Positions 29,101-31,873 of a stretch of 64,000 nt of DNA are shown here, piece by piece (the first letter of the stretch is position 1; every line of letters begins with the position of its first letter). The stretch is taken from positions 1 to 64,000 of the forward strand of contig JAIOYV010000006.1 of the NCBI GenBank assembly GCA_021740905.1, in the 5' to 3' direction. Made by a program: the position numbers and the translations under genes. Source of the DNA: Bacteroidales bacterium. GTDB lineage: Bacteria; Bacteroidota; Bacteroidia; Bacteroidales; M50B96. The notes below the pieces were generated by a model that was given only the letters and a program-made list of their open reading frames with translations, was not told where the DNA came from and ran no database searches.

Positions 29101-29970
29101 AAAAAAATCCTGATTCCGACTCCGATAGGCACTCAAATCCCTCTGGGCGATTTGGTAAATATTGAATACACACGTGGCCCACAAATGATAAAAAGCGAAA
29201 ATACCTTCCTGGTGGGTTATGTGATTTTCGATAAGAAAACAGGTTTTGCCGAAGTCGATGTGGTTGAAAATGCACAAGCCTATTTGAATAATTTGCTTAA
29301 GGAAGGAGACTTTGAATTGCCTGCCGGAGTGAGCTATGTATTTACAGGAAACTACGAAAATCAGATCAGGGCTACAAAGCGACTGATGATTGTAGTCCCA
29401 ATTTCTTTGATGATTATTTTTCTGATCCTTTATTTCCAGTTCCGGTCTGTCATTTCCACAACCCTTATTTTTACCGGGATTATCGTTGCCTTGTCGGGTG
29501 GCTTTATCATGCTGTGGCTCTACGGGCAAACCTGGTTTTTGGATGGTTCTATGGCTGGGATTAACATTAGGGATTTGTTTCAGGTGAAAACCATTAATCT
29601 GAGCGTGGCGGTCTGGGTCGGATTTATTGCCCTGTTTGGGGTTGCCACCGACGACGGCGTGTTGATTAGTACCTACATCAAACAATTGCAGGAAAAACTC
29701 AATCCCAAATCGATTAAAGAGGTCAGGGCCCTGGTCCTCGAAGCTGGATCGAAAAGGGTGCGCCCGGCCATTATGACTACGGCTACTACCATCATTGCAT
29801 TAATCCCTGTCCTCACTTCCACCGGAAAGGGGTCTGATATTATGGTTCCGATGGCCATCCCTCTATTTGGTGGGATGACCATCGAAGTGTTGACCATGTT
29901 TGTGGTGCCGGTGCTGTATAGTATGTGGCAAGAGAGAAAGGTTCGGAGGAATTCAATTGAGATAGAATAG
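26167..29970 (+). CDS. cusA: CusA/CzcA-type heavy-metal RND efflux pump
   Basis: 1267 residues, longer than typical CusA/CzcA (~1040). It has the RND architecture: an N-terminal TM helix, a first porter domain ([22 protein letters not shown]), TM helices with the proton-relay aspartate in [20 protein letters not shown] (near 435-445), a second porter domain and the C-terminal TM bundle with [13 protein letters not shown]. Between TM6 and the second porter domain (about 535-680) is an insert with several additional hydrophobic helices, as seen in some Bacteroidota pumps. It exports metal ions, likely Cu+/Ag+ given the HMA partners, from periplasm or cytoplasm through the TolC-type channel. The last codons already belong to the GAAATA-type array. 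Confidence 0.9.
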   Translation: [1267 protein letters not shown]

Positions 29971-30105
29971 AAATAGGTTGAAATATAATAGAAATAAAAT
30001 GGAAATACAATTGAAGAAAGTTGAAATACAATTCATCTATAAAATAAATACATTTGAAGTAATTGGAAATAAATAGGAACAAAATGGAAATATGTTGAAT
30101 TGGGA
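29970..30105 (+). repeat. phased GAAATA array upstream of four-helix-bundle gene
   Basis: GAAATA or close variants begin at 29970, 29980, 29991, 30002, 30013, 30023, 30056, 30066, 30077, 30087 and 30098. Their mean spacing of ~10.6 bp equals the helical repeat, so the A-tracts lie on one face of the DNA and the region should be curved. The motif is the complement of the TATTTC array after the gene. Confidence 0.7.
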
Positions 30106-30140
30106 TAAATTAGAAAAAAAATCAAACACATTAAAATTGA

Positions 30141-30539
30141 ATGAACATGGAAAATAGAAAATACATCGTCTTGAAAGACCTGGAGGTTTACCAACTGGCG
30201 CGGCAATTATCAAGAATAGGTTGGGATATTTTTGAAAGTCTTACCTGGCAAGATAAAAAGATAATGGGCGATCAATTTATCGAATCAACCGATTCGATTG
30301 GAGCCAACATCGCCGAAGGATATTATAGATTTCACTATTTGGATAAAGTGAAATTCTACTACTATAGCAGGGGATCACTGGCCGAATGTAGTACCCATTG
30401 GTTGGAGCTTCTTTTTGAAAGAGGTAAAATTCAACAGAGTGTTTTTGATGAATTTGTTCGGGAGTCAAAGCGATTGGAGATTAAGTTGAACAACTTCATT
30501 ACTGTTACCTATAATCAATCTCAAAAGCCAAAAAAATGA
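30141..30539 (+). CDS. four-helix-bundle protein (S23 / 23S rRNA intervening-sequence family)
   Basis: 132 residues from the ATG at 30141 (a second ATG 6 bp later is also possible). Family pattern: LKDLEVYQLARQLSRIGWDI, then SLTWQDKKIMGDQFIESTDSI, then GANIAEGYYRF and FYYYSRGSLAECSTHWLELL. This matches the four-helix-bundle proteins first known as the ORF inside 23S rRNA intervening sequences of Leptospira and related to Avd. Their biochemical role is unknown; they form pentameric helical bundles and bind nucleic acid in the Avd case. Here the gene is inserted inside a metal-efflux operon, flanked by complementary phased repeats, and its stop overlaps the tolC-type start (ATGA at 30536-30539). 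Confidence 0.85.
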   Translation: MNMENRKYIVLKDLEVYQLARQLSRIGWDIFESLTWQDKKIMGDQFIESTDSIGANIAEGYYRFHYLDKVKFYYYSRGSLAECSTHWLELLFERGKIQQSVFDEFVRESKRLEIKLNNFITVTYNQSQKPKK

Positions 30540-31873
30540 AAATCCTAAAACAACATATTTCAATTTGTTTCTATCCATTTCTATCTATCTTTAAGTGCGG
30601 TAATCTATTTCCACTTATTTCAAAGTATTTCAAAGTATTTCAAAATATTTCAAAGTATTTCTATCTATTTCTATTTATTTCAATATCCTTCAGTGTCAGT
30701 GCACAGGGCGATCTTCAGAACTACCTACAAACAGCCGCCGAAAACAATCCTGGCCTAAAGATGAAGTTCAATGAATATATGGCAGCTCTCGAAGTTGGCC
30801 CACAGGCTAAAGCATTGCCCGATCCACAGGTGGCGTTTGGCTATTTTATTCAACCTGTAGAAACGCGGGTTGGACCGATGCGAGTGAAGATATCGGCTTC
30901 GCAAATGTTCCCCTGGTTTGGCACTTTGAAAACGAAAGAATATGCAGCCATCCAACTTGCGAAAGCAAAATATGAAGCATTTGAGGAAGCAAAATCGAAA
31001 CTATTCCATGATATCCGGACTATGTATTTCAATATCTATATCAACCAAAAGGCGATTGAAATTACAATGGAAAATCTTGACTTACTCGGCAGCTTCCGCA
31101 AATTGGCCAATATTAAAGTTGAGTCGGGCCTGGTGTCGGCAGTCGATGAGTACCGGATTGAAATAGAAATTGGCGAGCTTGAAAATCAACTGGCTTATCT
31201 AAAAGACAAAGAACAGGTGTTGCAAGTGATGTTCAGCAATCTTCTCAATACTGATAAAATAGATCAGGTTTCTACACCCAAACTTCTATGGAATGATGAC
31301 TTCCCTTTGACAAAACAGGAAGCACTCGATTCAATCAACAGAATGAACCATCAGCTTTTAAGCCTCGACATGCAACAGGAAGCTTTGCGCCTTCGTCAGG
31401 AAGTGGCTTCCGATATGGGAAAACCTACTTTTATGCTTGGCTTCGATTATACCGTGGTTGGAAAGGGCGAAAACAACATGGCCGGAACCGATGCTTTGGT
31501 GTTCCCAATGGTTGGCATTACAATTCCTCTTTATCGGAATAAGTATAAGGCAATGGTAGAGGAAGTGGTTTATATGGAAGCTGCCAAAGAAAACGAGAAG
31601 CTTGAAAAAACCAATATGCTTGAAAGCCTTTTCGAAAATGGCTGGAAGGATTATGTGGATGCCAACAGAAGGATCACTTTGTATATTTCTCAACTCAACC
31701 TGGCCAAAATATCGGTAAAACTTTTAGAAACCGATTATGCCACGGGGAATAAAAACTTTGAGGAGATTCTCCGTATGGAGCGTAAACAGCTAAAGTTTAA
31801 TTTGGAACTTGAAAAAGCCAGGGCTGATAAACAGGCGGCGATATCATTCATCTATTATTTAATGGGCAAATAA
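30536..31873 (+). CDS. TolC/CusC-type outer-membrane factor with repeat-derived signal peptide
   Basis: 445 residues. The mature part (from about residue 58, QGDLQNYLQTAAENNPGLKM) is a TolC-family outer-membrane efflux protein with the two repeated helical hairpins and short beta-strands. The leader is unusually long (about 57 residues) and mostly encoded by a 10-bp repeat array: ISKYFKVFQN, ISKYFYLFLF, ISISFSVSAQ show a 10-residue periodicity. Signal peptidase cleavage is likely after SVSA. The ATG overlaps the stop of the four-helix-bundle gene, and no other ATG lies before the mature region. It forms the exit duct for the CusA-type pump. Confidence 0.85.
   Translation: MKILKQHISICFYPFLSIFKCGNLFPLISKYFKVFQNISKYFYLFLFISISFSVSAQGDLQNYLQTAAENNPGLKMKFNEYMAALEVGPQAKALPDPQVAFGYFIQPVETRVGPMRVKISASQMFPWFGTLKTKEYAAIQLAKAKYEAFEEAKSKLFHDIRTMYFNIYINQKAIEITMENLDLLGSFRKLANIKVESGLVSAVDEYRIEIEIGELENQLAYLKDKEQVLQVMFSNLLNTDKIDQVSTPKLLWNDDFPLTKQEALDSINRMNHQLLSLDMQQEALRLRQEVASDMGKPTFMLGFDYTVVGKGENNMAGTDALVFPMVGITIPLYRNKYKAMVEEVVYMEAAKENEKLEKTNMLESLFENGWKDYVDANRRITLYISQLNLAKISVKLLETDYATGNKNFEEILRMERKQLKFNLELEKARADKQAAISFIYYLMGK
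30551..30690 (+). repeat. 10-bp tandem array (TATTTC type) inside the tolC signal region
   Basis: About 14 consecutive 10-bp units with consensus CAAAGTATTT; the best are CCACTTATTT, CAAAGTATTT (three perfect copies and one with a single change) and CTATCTATTT at 30611-30670. Units near 30581-30600 are degenerate. The motif is the reverse complement of the upstream GAAATA array. Confidence 0.85.

Follow-up and report, generated by a model that had tools for sequence, protein, structure and literature searches.

The window analysed here, a 64,000-nucleotide stretch of a contig from a Bacteroidales bacterium, contains a metal-efflux operon in which a small gene is framed by two arrays of short, complementary words. 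The question raised by this locus was whether gene and arrays form one unit that inserts in protein operons, or whether the arrays are coincidental low-complexity DNA.

Gene and arrays at the cusA-tolC junction

The upstream host gene, a cusA/czcA heavy-metal RND permease (26167..29970, + strand; TIGR00914, 782 bits), is followed by the IVP gene (30141..30539, + strand) and by the tolC/cusC outer-membrane efflux gene (30536..31873, + strand; PF02321 and ORF list), whose start at 30536 overlaps the IVP stop as ATGA. The immediate neighbours of the IVP gene are cusA, tolC, and cusB. The IVP product has 132 aa if the ATG at 30141 is used and 130 aa if the ATG at 30147 is used. Profile searches placed the gene in the rRNA intervening sequence protein family, as predicted, with matches to PF05635 (72 bits, curated cut-off 33.8) and TIGR02436 (68.4 bits, curated cut-off 24). 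The AlphaFold2 model was a predicted four-helix bundle (pLDDT 92.5), and Foldseek with this model matched 2GSC (TM 0.83), 2RLD (TM 0.75), and Avd [4DWL (TM 0.74–0.76), and also Avd in the DGR ribonucleoprotein 8UB7]. The modelled S23/Avd four-helix-bundle fold agrees with the predicted relationship to Avd; homology of Avd to the IVP family has already been noted (PMC10053308).

Sequence and autocorrelation analyses located the upstream array at about 29951..30126 (+ strand), with GAAATA-type words every 10–11 bp and a G-rich sense strand, and the downstream array at 30553..30690 (+ strand), with complementary TATTTC words every 10 bp. Copies of GAAAT were found at 29970, 29980, 29991, 30002, 30023, 30066, and 30087, and autocorrelation of the upstream array peaked at lags 10–11 and 21. 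Copies of ATTTC were found at 30557, 30577, 30607, and thereafter each 10 bp up to 30677; autocorrelation of the downstream array was 0.67 at lag 10 and 0.58 at lag 20. Both predicted arrays and their complementarity were confirmed, but the upstream array was patchier than stated, and the cusA stop codon falls within its beginning. The downstream array does follow the IVP gene; however, it is not purely intergenic, since tolC begins at 30536 and the array lies within tolC, where its in-frame translation forms the TolC leader KYFKVFQNISKYFYLFLFISISFSVSAQG.

For the IVP gene, local comparison of the upstream flank with the reverse-complemented downstream flank gave a score of 63. The runner-up among the 58 genes of the window scored 27, and the best score in a first-order Markov null of 1000 pairs was 49. 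RNA folding of 29950–30700 gave −178.1 kcal/mol vs −141.2 ± 5.8 (z = −6.3). In the fold, the arrays paired along their length in a predicted stem around the IVP ORF (29956..30684, + strand; inverted-repeat pairs I1–I7), which supports the proposal that they could pair in the transcript and enclose the ORF. The window locus has complementary termini of the rRNA intervening sequence type.

Flanks of other IVP genes

By sequence comparison, the window locus is a single instance of a general rule. In the source genome (G000), the mean complementarity of own flanks was 49.2 vs 18.5 for flanks mismatched within the genome (n = 11, the window gene and ten further PF05635 genes). Across 154 loci, own flanks scored 36.2 vs 17.5 for mismatched ones, and flank complementarity exceeded the 95th percentile in 118; neither loci nor locus pairs are phylogenetically independent in these comparisons, and about one-quarter of the loci were not above the 95th percentile, which counts against reading gene and arrays as an element. 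When mismatching was done within the same genome, the scores were 38.1 vs 18.9, and own flanks were best in 53 of 62 (p = 1e-11). The named sample gave 32.1 vs 18.9, and loci from the class of G619, Planctomycetota by MAG label only, gave 59.4 vs 17.6. The organism names of the other MAGs are labels as given; a 'Limnohabitans' MAG was not counted as evidence from outside Bacteroidota, since searching by its class gave the Bacteroidia set. The own-flank pattern was likewise seen on complete plasmids of cultured cyanobacteria.

An unbiased control of 800 kb was taken from a genome other than the source genome; among its 703 genes, the top two complementarity scorers were a GxxExxY gene and an IVP gene. 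Arrays rich in A/T raise chance complementarity (the G165 background was about 21), as coincidental low-complexity DNA would require; however, this explanation was refuted by all mismatched-pair, within-genome, Markov, and GC-stratified controls and has a negligible probability. General intergenic low complexity was ruled out by the control genome, the intergenic DNA of G165, and within-genome mismatching.

Flanking arrays were found almost everywhere when other family members were checked. Over 229 loci the period was 7, with peaks at lags 7, 14, and 21, and this periodicity was absent in general intergenic DNA of G165. The window unit of 10–11 nt is thus an exception to the usual 7-nt unit of IVP loci. 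The prediction of strongly curved flanks does not carry over to the family: phased-bend curvature was ruled out as a common theme because the arrays generally repeat with a period of 7 nt instead of about 10.5. PF05635 was present in 188 of the 247 genomes sampled from the class, and a single genome had as many as 18 copies; therefore, the unit is common. Phage carriage of IVP loci was looked for, with no hits.

Occupied junctions, empty junctions and a candidate element

Gene-less cusA-tolC junctions were found in relatives (L366, L368–L373), all without arrays, and empty sufB-sufC junctions without arrays were also found (L152, L154, L158, L163, and L167). The same gene at cusA-tolC without arrays would have spoken against the original prediction; the opposite was observed, as L346 and L349, with this IVP type at that junction, have GAAATA-type arrays. 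Comparison of these loci showed that the arrays come and go together with the IVP gene. At the sufBC and fadBA junctions, two IVP types (46% and 52–54% identity) were found at the same site with different arrays. Comparison of junctions also showed that the putative element sits between operon cistrons in sense orientation and that the same junctions are taken by unrelated IVP types. Insertion into a pre-existing array is unlikely, because the flanks would be direct, not inverted, and the empty sites are array-less. No systematic target-site duplication was found, and none was evident at the sufBC junctions; in G048 and G301, a 69-bp partial sufB copy lies 3′ of the element.

Many IVP copies have intact frames, the downstream arrays are C-rich and G-poor, and arrays also encode the signal peptide or leader of the gene that follows. 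These features would suit regulatory arrays, co-evolving hairpins that tune operon termination or processing, with IVP as a host-useful RNA-binding regulator and not a selfish element. However, IVP presence at the same junction is patchy between related species, the functions of the host operons are unrelated, and unrelated IVP types share a junction, which makes this reading very unlikely.

The best explanation, with a probability of roughly 60%, is that the IVP gene and its two inverted short-word arrays are one small insertion element of about 0.5–0.8 kb. The proposal of a unit that inserts in protein operons is well supported, because relatives and other family members carry arrays and the empty junctions do not. 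Some sites among the loci compared are empty, and the same unit recurs at others, the pattern that a transposable element would leave.

Array similarity at non-orthologous sites climbed with IVP identity, being 33 (<45%), 38 (45–60%), 57 (60–75%), and 82 (≥75%), and related IVPs at different sites shared array words (e.g., L005/L236, L091/L107, and L208/L215). This comparison showed that each IVP lineage takes its array words along when it reaches a new site. At orthologous sites, comparison between species showed that the two arms change in concert (own arms 37.4 vs cross 23.4, in 47 of 49 pairs). Direct transposition was not seen among these loci; within one genome, the most similar copies at two sites were 87% identical (L091/L107).

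The element is probably mobilised at the DNA level. It would insert as DNA between cistrons, where harm is least. An IVP oligomer, with the fold of pentameric Avd, may recognise the inverted arrays at the ends, in duplex or hairpin form, and would recruit host enzymes, since no enzyme is encoded in the element itself. Slippage within arrays, together with template switching or conversion between arms, could let the words drift while complementarity is kept. In the message, the arms would pair into a long stem that RNase III would probably cut, as it does in rRNA intervening sequences; cutting would release the IVP message and leave the host operon less disturbed. We infer both the mobility and the RNA excision.

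The IVP loci were co-directional with both neighbours in 70 out of 82 cases, vs 69 out of 136 small genes (p = 1e-7). This bias counts against a DNA-level element in that it is equally compatible with an RNA-level insertion step. It favours an mRNA counterpart of the rRNA intervening sequence, in which the arrays form a stem, RNase III excises the IVP RNA, pairing is kept by RNA selection, and spread may occur by RNA (reverse-splicing-like) insertion. The long predicted stem around the ORF points the same way, as do the Coxiella intervening sequence, which carries the same gene family and has a 28-bp terminal stem cut by RNase III (PMC4990558), and the 16S and 23S insertions of CPR bacteria, which contain IVP ORFs (PMC11270868). 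However, selection on an RNA stem was judged by the excess of G.U pairs, which sense RNA tolerates, and no excess over A.C was found [141 vs 162 (p = 0.25); 105 vs 116 in the 154-locus set]; therefore, the pairing does not look maintained by sense-RNA selection. Moreover, the arrays of cyanobacterial L384, antisense between ribonucleotide reductase genes, are still well matched, and none of the loci scanned was located in rRNA or had an rRNA signature nearby. The mRNA counterpart is possible, but considerably less probable than the insertion element.

Heptad arrays were also found without an IVP gene, and in G019 the cusA-tolC junction holds an IVP-less inverted pair (L374) whose words resemble the IVP flanks in the same cus operon; thus, such arrays also exist apart from IVP, which weighs against the insertion element. 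In Xanthomonas, GGGAATC arrays number 186, with 70 cases of convergent pairs (PMC4692102), and the IVP gene XCC0516 is present. These observations would fit a REPIN/RAYT-like system, with arrays as independent repeats, single or in inverted pairs, that IVP keeps or spreads. This explanation is improbable: the words differ at every locus of the source genome, whereas REPs are common across a genome, and the intergenic DNA of G165 lacks the 7-nt periodicity.

An insertion element would join two old puzzles, namely the role of S23/IVP proteins with the spread of rRNA intervening sequences, and the origin of orphan heptamer arrays. A broader proposal, held tentatively at somewhat under even odds, is that IVP with complementary heptad arrays forms a distinct cross-phylum class of transposase-free insertion elements. 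In it, the Avd-like protein would maintain or generate locus-specific inverted arrays and move them between operons, and this one system would have as its special cases or remnants the rRNA intervening sequences and the long-known orphan heptamer repeats (cyanobacteria, Bacteroidota, and Xanthomonas). The unit lends itself to clean tests, given its polymorphic empty sites, hosts that can be cultured (Flavobacterium and Nostoc), and a small soluble protein. For annotation, the leader of a following gene can be translated array sequence, and an IVP gene within a cas operon may be a passenger; the domain name is among the figure labels of a CRISPR survey (PMC10910872).

Comparison with known systems

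No description of an IVP gene with inverted arrays as an insertion element was found in the literature. As with MITEs and small insertion sequences, the element is short, its ends are inverted, and relatives have empty sites; however, it has no transposase and no systematic target-site duplication, and its ends are variable arrays, not fixed terminal inverted repeats. With REPIN/RAYT it shares short repeats in inverted pairs, further repeats that stand alone, and a repeat-flanked gene, but the enclosed gene is PF05635 and not a Y1 transposase, the words vary by locus within one genome, and heptad arrays take the place of short palindromes. Avd of diversity-generating retroelements has the same fold as IVP, whereas no reverse transcriptase or template/variable repeat was recognised among the immediate neighbours of the IVP gene.

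The heptamer repeats [cyanobacterial STRR; TAACTGA arrays (MacGregor 2015, PMC4679880); Xanthomonas/Nostoc GGGAATC (PMC4692102)] are likewise 7-nt tandem intergenic arrays that form convergent inverted pairs and that one relative has where the next lacks them. Unlike these, the arrays described here flank an IVP gene as complementary pairs, and the window unit is 10–11 nt; no link to IVP genes was found in the heptamer papers (PMC4679880 and PMC4692102).

Compared with the rRNA intervening sequences that carry S23/IVP (Coxiella burnetii, PMC4990558), the element lies between protein cistrons (cusA/tolC) and not in rRNA, and its ends are short-word arrays specific to locus and lineage; the Coxiella sequence is cut by RNase III, and such excision of the element is a prediction. 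Both have the same protein family, an ORF within complementary termini, a sense orientation in a transcribed non-coding place, and a patchy distribution, and both have been proposed as selfish elements.

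The IVP gene and its arrays between cusA and tolC

The gene at 30141-30539 (+), between cusA and tolC, was a member of the 23S_rRNA_IVP family (IVP; PF05635/TIGR02436). Its protein is predicted to have the S23/Avd fold, in agreement with the original prediction of a four-helix-bundle protein akin to rRNA intervening sequence proteins and Avd. The arrays reported on both sides of the gene were present: GAAAT occurred upstream (29951-30126) at 29970, 29980, 29991, 30002, 30023, 30066, and 30087, and ATTTC downstream (30553-30690) at 30557 and 30577, then regularly at 10-bp intervals between 30607 and 30677. 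When the downstream flank was reverse-complemented and aligned locally with the upstream flank, the score was 63; the runner-up among the 58 genes of the window scored 27, and none of 1000 Markov nulls exceeded 49. The supposed pairing of the arrays around the ORF in the transcript was supported by the predicted RNA fold, in which they paired along their length (-178.1 vs -141.2 +/- 5.8 kcal/mol, z = -6.3). The downstream array fell within the tolC reading frame (start 30536) and encoded the TolC leader, 30536-30705 being read as signal/leader peptide. A further short intergenic-looking array of the AATTGGGA type lay at 18009-18054, away from any IVP gene.

Arrays at other IVP loci

The same genome carried eleven PF05635 genes, nearly all with short-word arrays on both sides. 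The words varied between loci, yet were complementary inside each locus (CGGGTTT/AAACCCG; GCTGGTT/AACCAGC, between cysD and cysN; TTCAAAG/CTTTGAA), and mean complementarity was 49.2 vs 18.5 for mismatched flanks within the genome. The search of other genomes suggested with the original prediction showed that complementary arrays were widespread at IVP loci: among 154 loci, taken from related orders and from a single genus sampled densely, own flanks scored 36.2 vs 17.5 for mismatched flanks, and 118 exceeded the 95th percentile of mismatched pairs, while about one quarter did not stand out. With composition kept by mismatching inside each of 11 genomes, the scores were 38.1 vs 18.9 (own best in 53/62, p = 1e-11), and an independent sample with organism names gave 32.1 vs 18.9.

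Complete plasmids of cultured cyanobacteria had IVP genes with textbook heptamers (e.g., GGGAACA/TGTTCCC, GGGAGTA/TACTCCC). The pattern was also found in MAGs labelled Acidobacteriota, Anaerolineae, Planctomycetota, KSB1, and an archaeon, such labels being unreliable in one case; a MAG titled Limnohabitans (G616, L321) grouped with Bacteroidia in a class search, its record name being misleading. At three loci on cyanobacterial plasmids (L383, L388, L389), IVP elements lay within CRISPR operons (cas6-IVP-cas4 twice, cas10-IVP-cmr3), which may explain the naming of the domain among the figure labels of a CRISPR survey (PMC10910872).

Pooled autocorrelation of 229 loci peaked at lags 7, 14, and 21 (0.38, 0.36, and 0.35 vs 0.285); the 10-11 nt unit of the window is therefore an exception. 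Of 121 decided cases, 114 had an upstream arm rich in G on the sense strand. In G165, the single control genome, general intergenic DNA had no 7-nt period, and a GxxExxY and an IVP gene scored highest of 703 genes. Its 800-kb control stretch had heptad arrays near gene ends that lay away from any IVP gene (among them long TTCCTAA and TGATAAC arrays).

GxxExxY (PF13366) genes likewise lay between complementary repeats, often with hairpins within each flank, at L041, L042, L045, and L047 of the window's genome and at 456941-457571 of the joined G165 stretch (L110-L149). With own scores of 69, 32, 86, and 41 vs about 19 mismatched, GxxExxY is a second gene family of the same habit.

Filled and empty junctions, lineage and proposed movement

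Empty cusA-tolC sites, proposed as a check, were found in relatives (L366, L368-L373): the genes abutted or overlapped, with an ordinary signal peptide and no arrays. Relatives of the window IVP at this junction (L346, L349) did carry GAAATA-type arrays, again encoding the TolC leaders, and two more at unrelated sites (L347, L348) had related 10-11 nt words. At sufB-sufC of one genus, five genomes had a 12-57 bp gap free of both IVP and arrays; where the junction was filled, arrays extended from the sufB stop codon up to the sufC start. On these comparisons, the arrays belong with the IVP gene. In genome G019, an inverted pair without an IVP gene at cusA-tolC (L374, about 1060-1420; score 84) may be a form that has decayed or is non-autonomous; arrays there (L374, L231) coded for leader/linker repeats of TolC and CusB, e.g., TRNPQPATRNPKPA.

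sufB-sufC held two IVP types, 46% identical, with distinct words (TGCGTGTTG or GATTGCTGATT), and at fadB-fadA the types, 52-54% identical, had TGTCCTATG or GGTCTATGGTC words, which indicates that array words follow IVP lineage, not site. Between non-orthologous sites, array similarity climbed from 33 to 82 with growing IVP identity; cases in point are L005 of the window's genome with L236, which lies in a hydrogenase operon of another family, and, inside one genome, L091 with L107. Such similarity is the main evidence for the putative movement as a unit. No target duplication was found and no transposition event was caught among the loci compared. The last 69 bp of sufB were repeated after the IVP element in L105/L157 (G048) and G301, a scar that insertion or recombination may have left.

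Where orthologous sites held one IVP type, diverged to 50-72%, own pairing averaged 37.4 vs 23.4 for cross pairing between species and was higher in 47 of 49 pairs, which share genomes and are not independent; the arms thus change in step with each other. Cross-pairing persisted among the nearest relatives of the window's own element.

DNA or RNA level, and known systems

In AT-rich genomes, 70/82 IVP copies were co-directional with both neighbours vs 69/136 small control genes taken from G165 (p = 1e-7). This bias would be expected if the element passed through an RNA-level step or needed transcription by the host. Selection on sense RNA pairing should, however, give more G.U than A.C among non-Watson-Crick pairs, and no such excess was seen (141 vs 162, p = 0.25); moreover, the arrays of L384, an antisense copy in its operon, nonetheless matched. 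Formation of the arrays and movement of the element at the DNA level is preferred; the element would be transcribed from the host operon, with RNase III cutting of the transcript a probable by-product.

No description of array-flanked IVP elements was found in the open-access literature searched. Heptamer arrays have been described in Beggiatoaceae, cyanobacteria, and Bacteroidetes (PMC4679880) and, with convergent pairs, in Xanthomonas and Nostoc (PMC4692102), in passages that make no mention of IVP. IVP-Avd homology has already been pointed out (PMC10053308). IVP ORFs lie inside rRNA insertions of CPR bacteria (PMC11270868), and the Coxiella IVS has been described as a selfish element whose 28-bp terminal stem is cleaved by RNase III and whose protein has no known function (PMC4990558).
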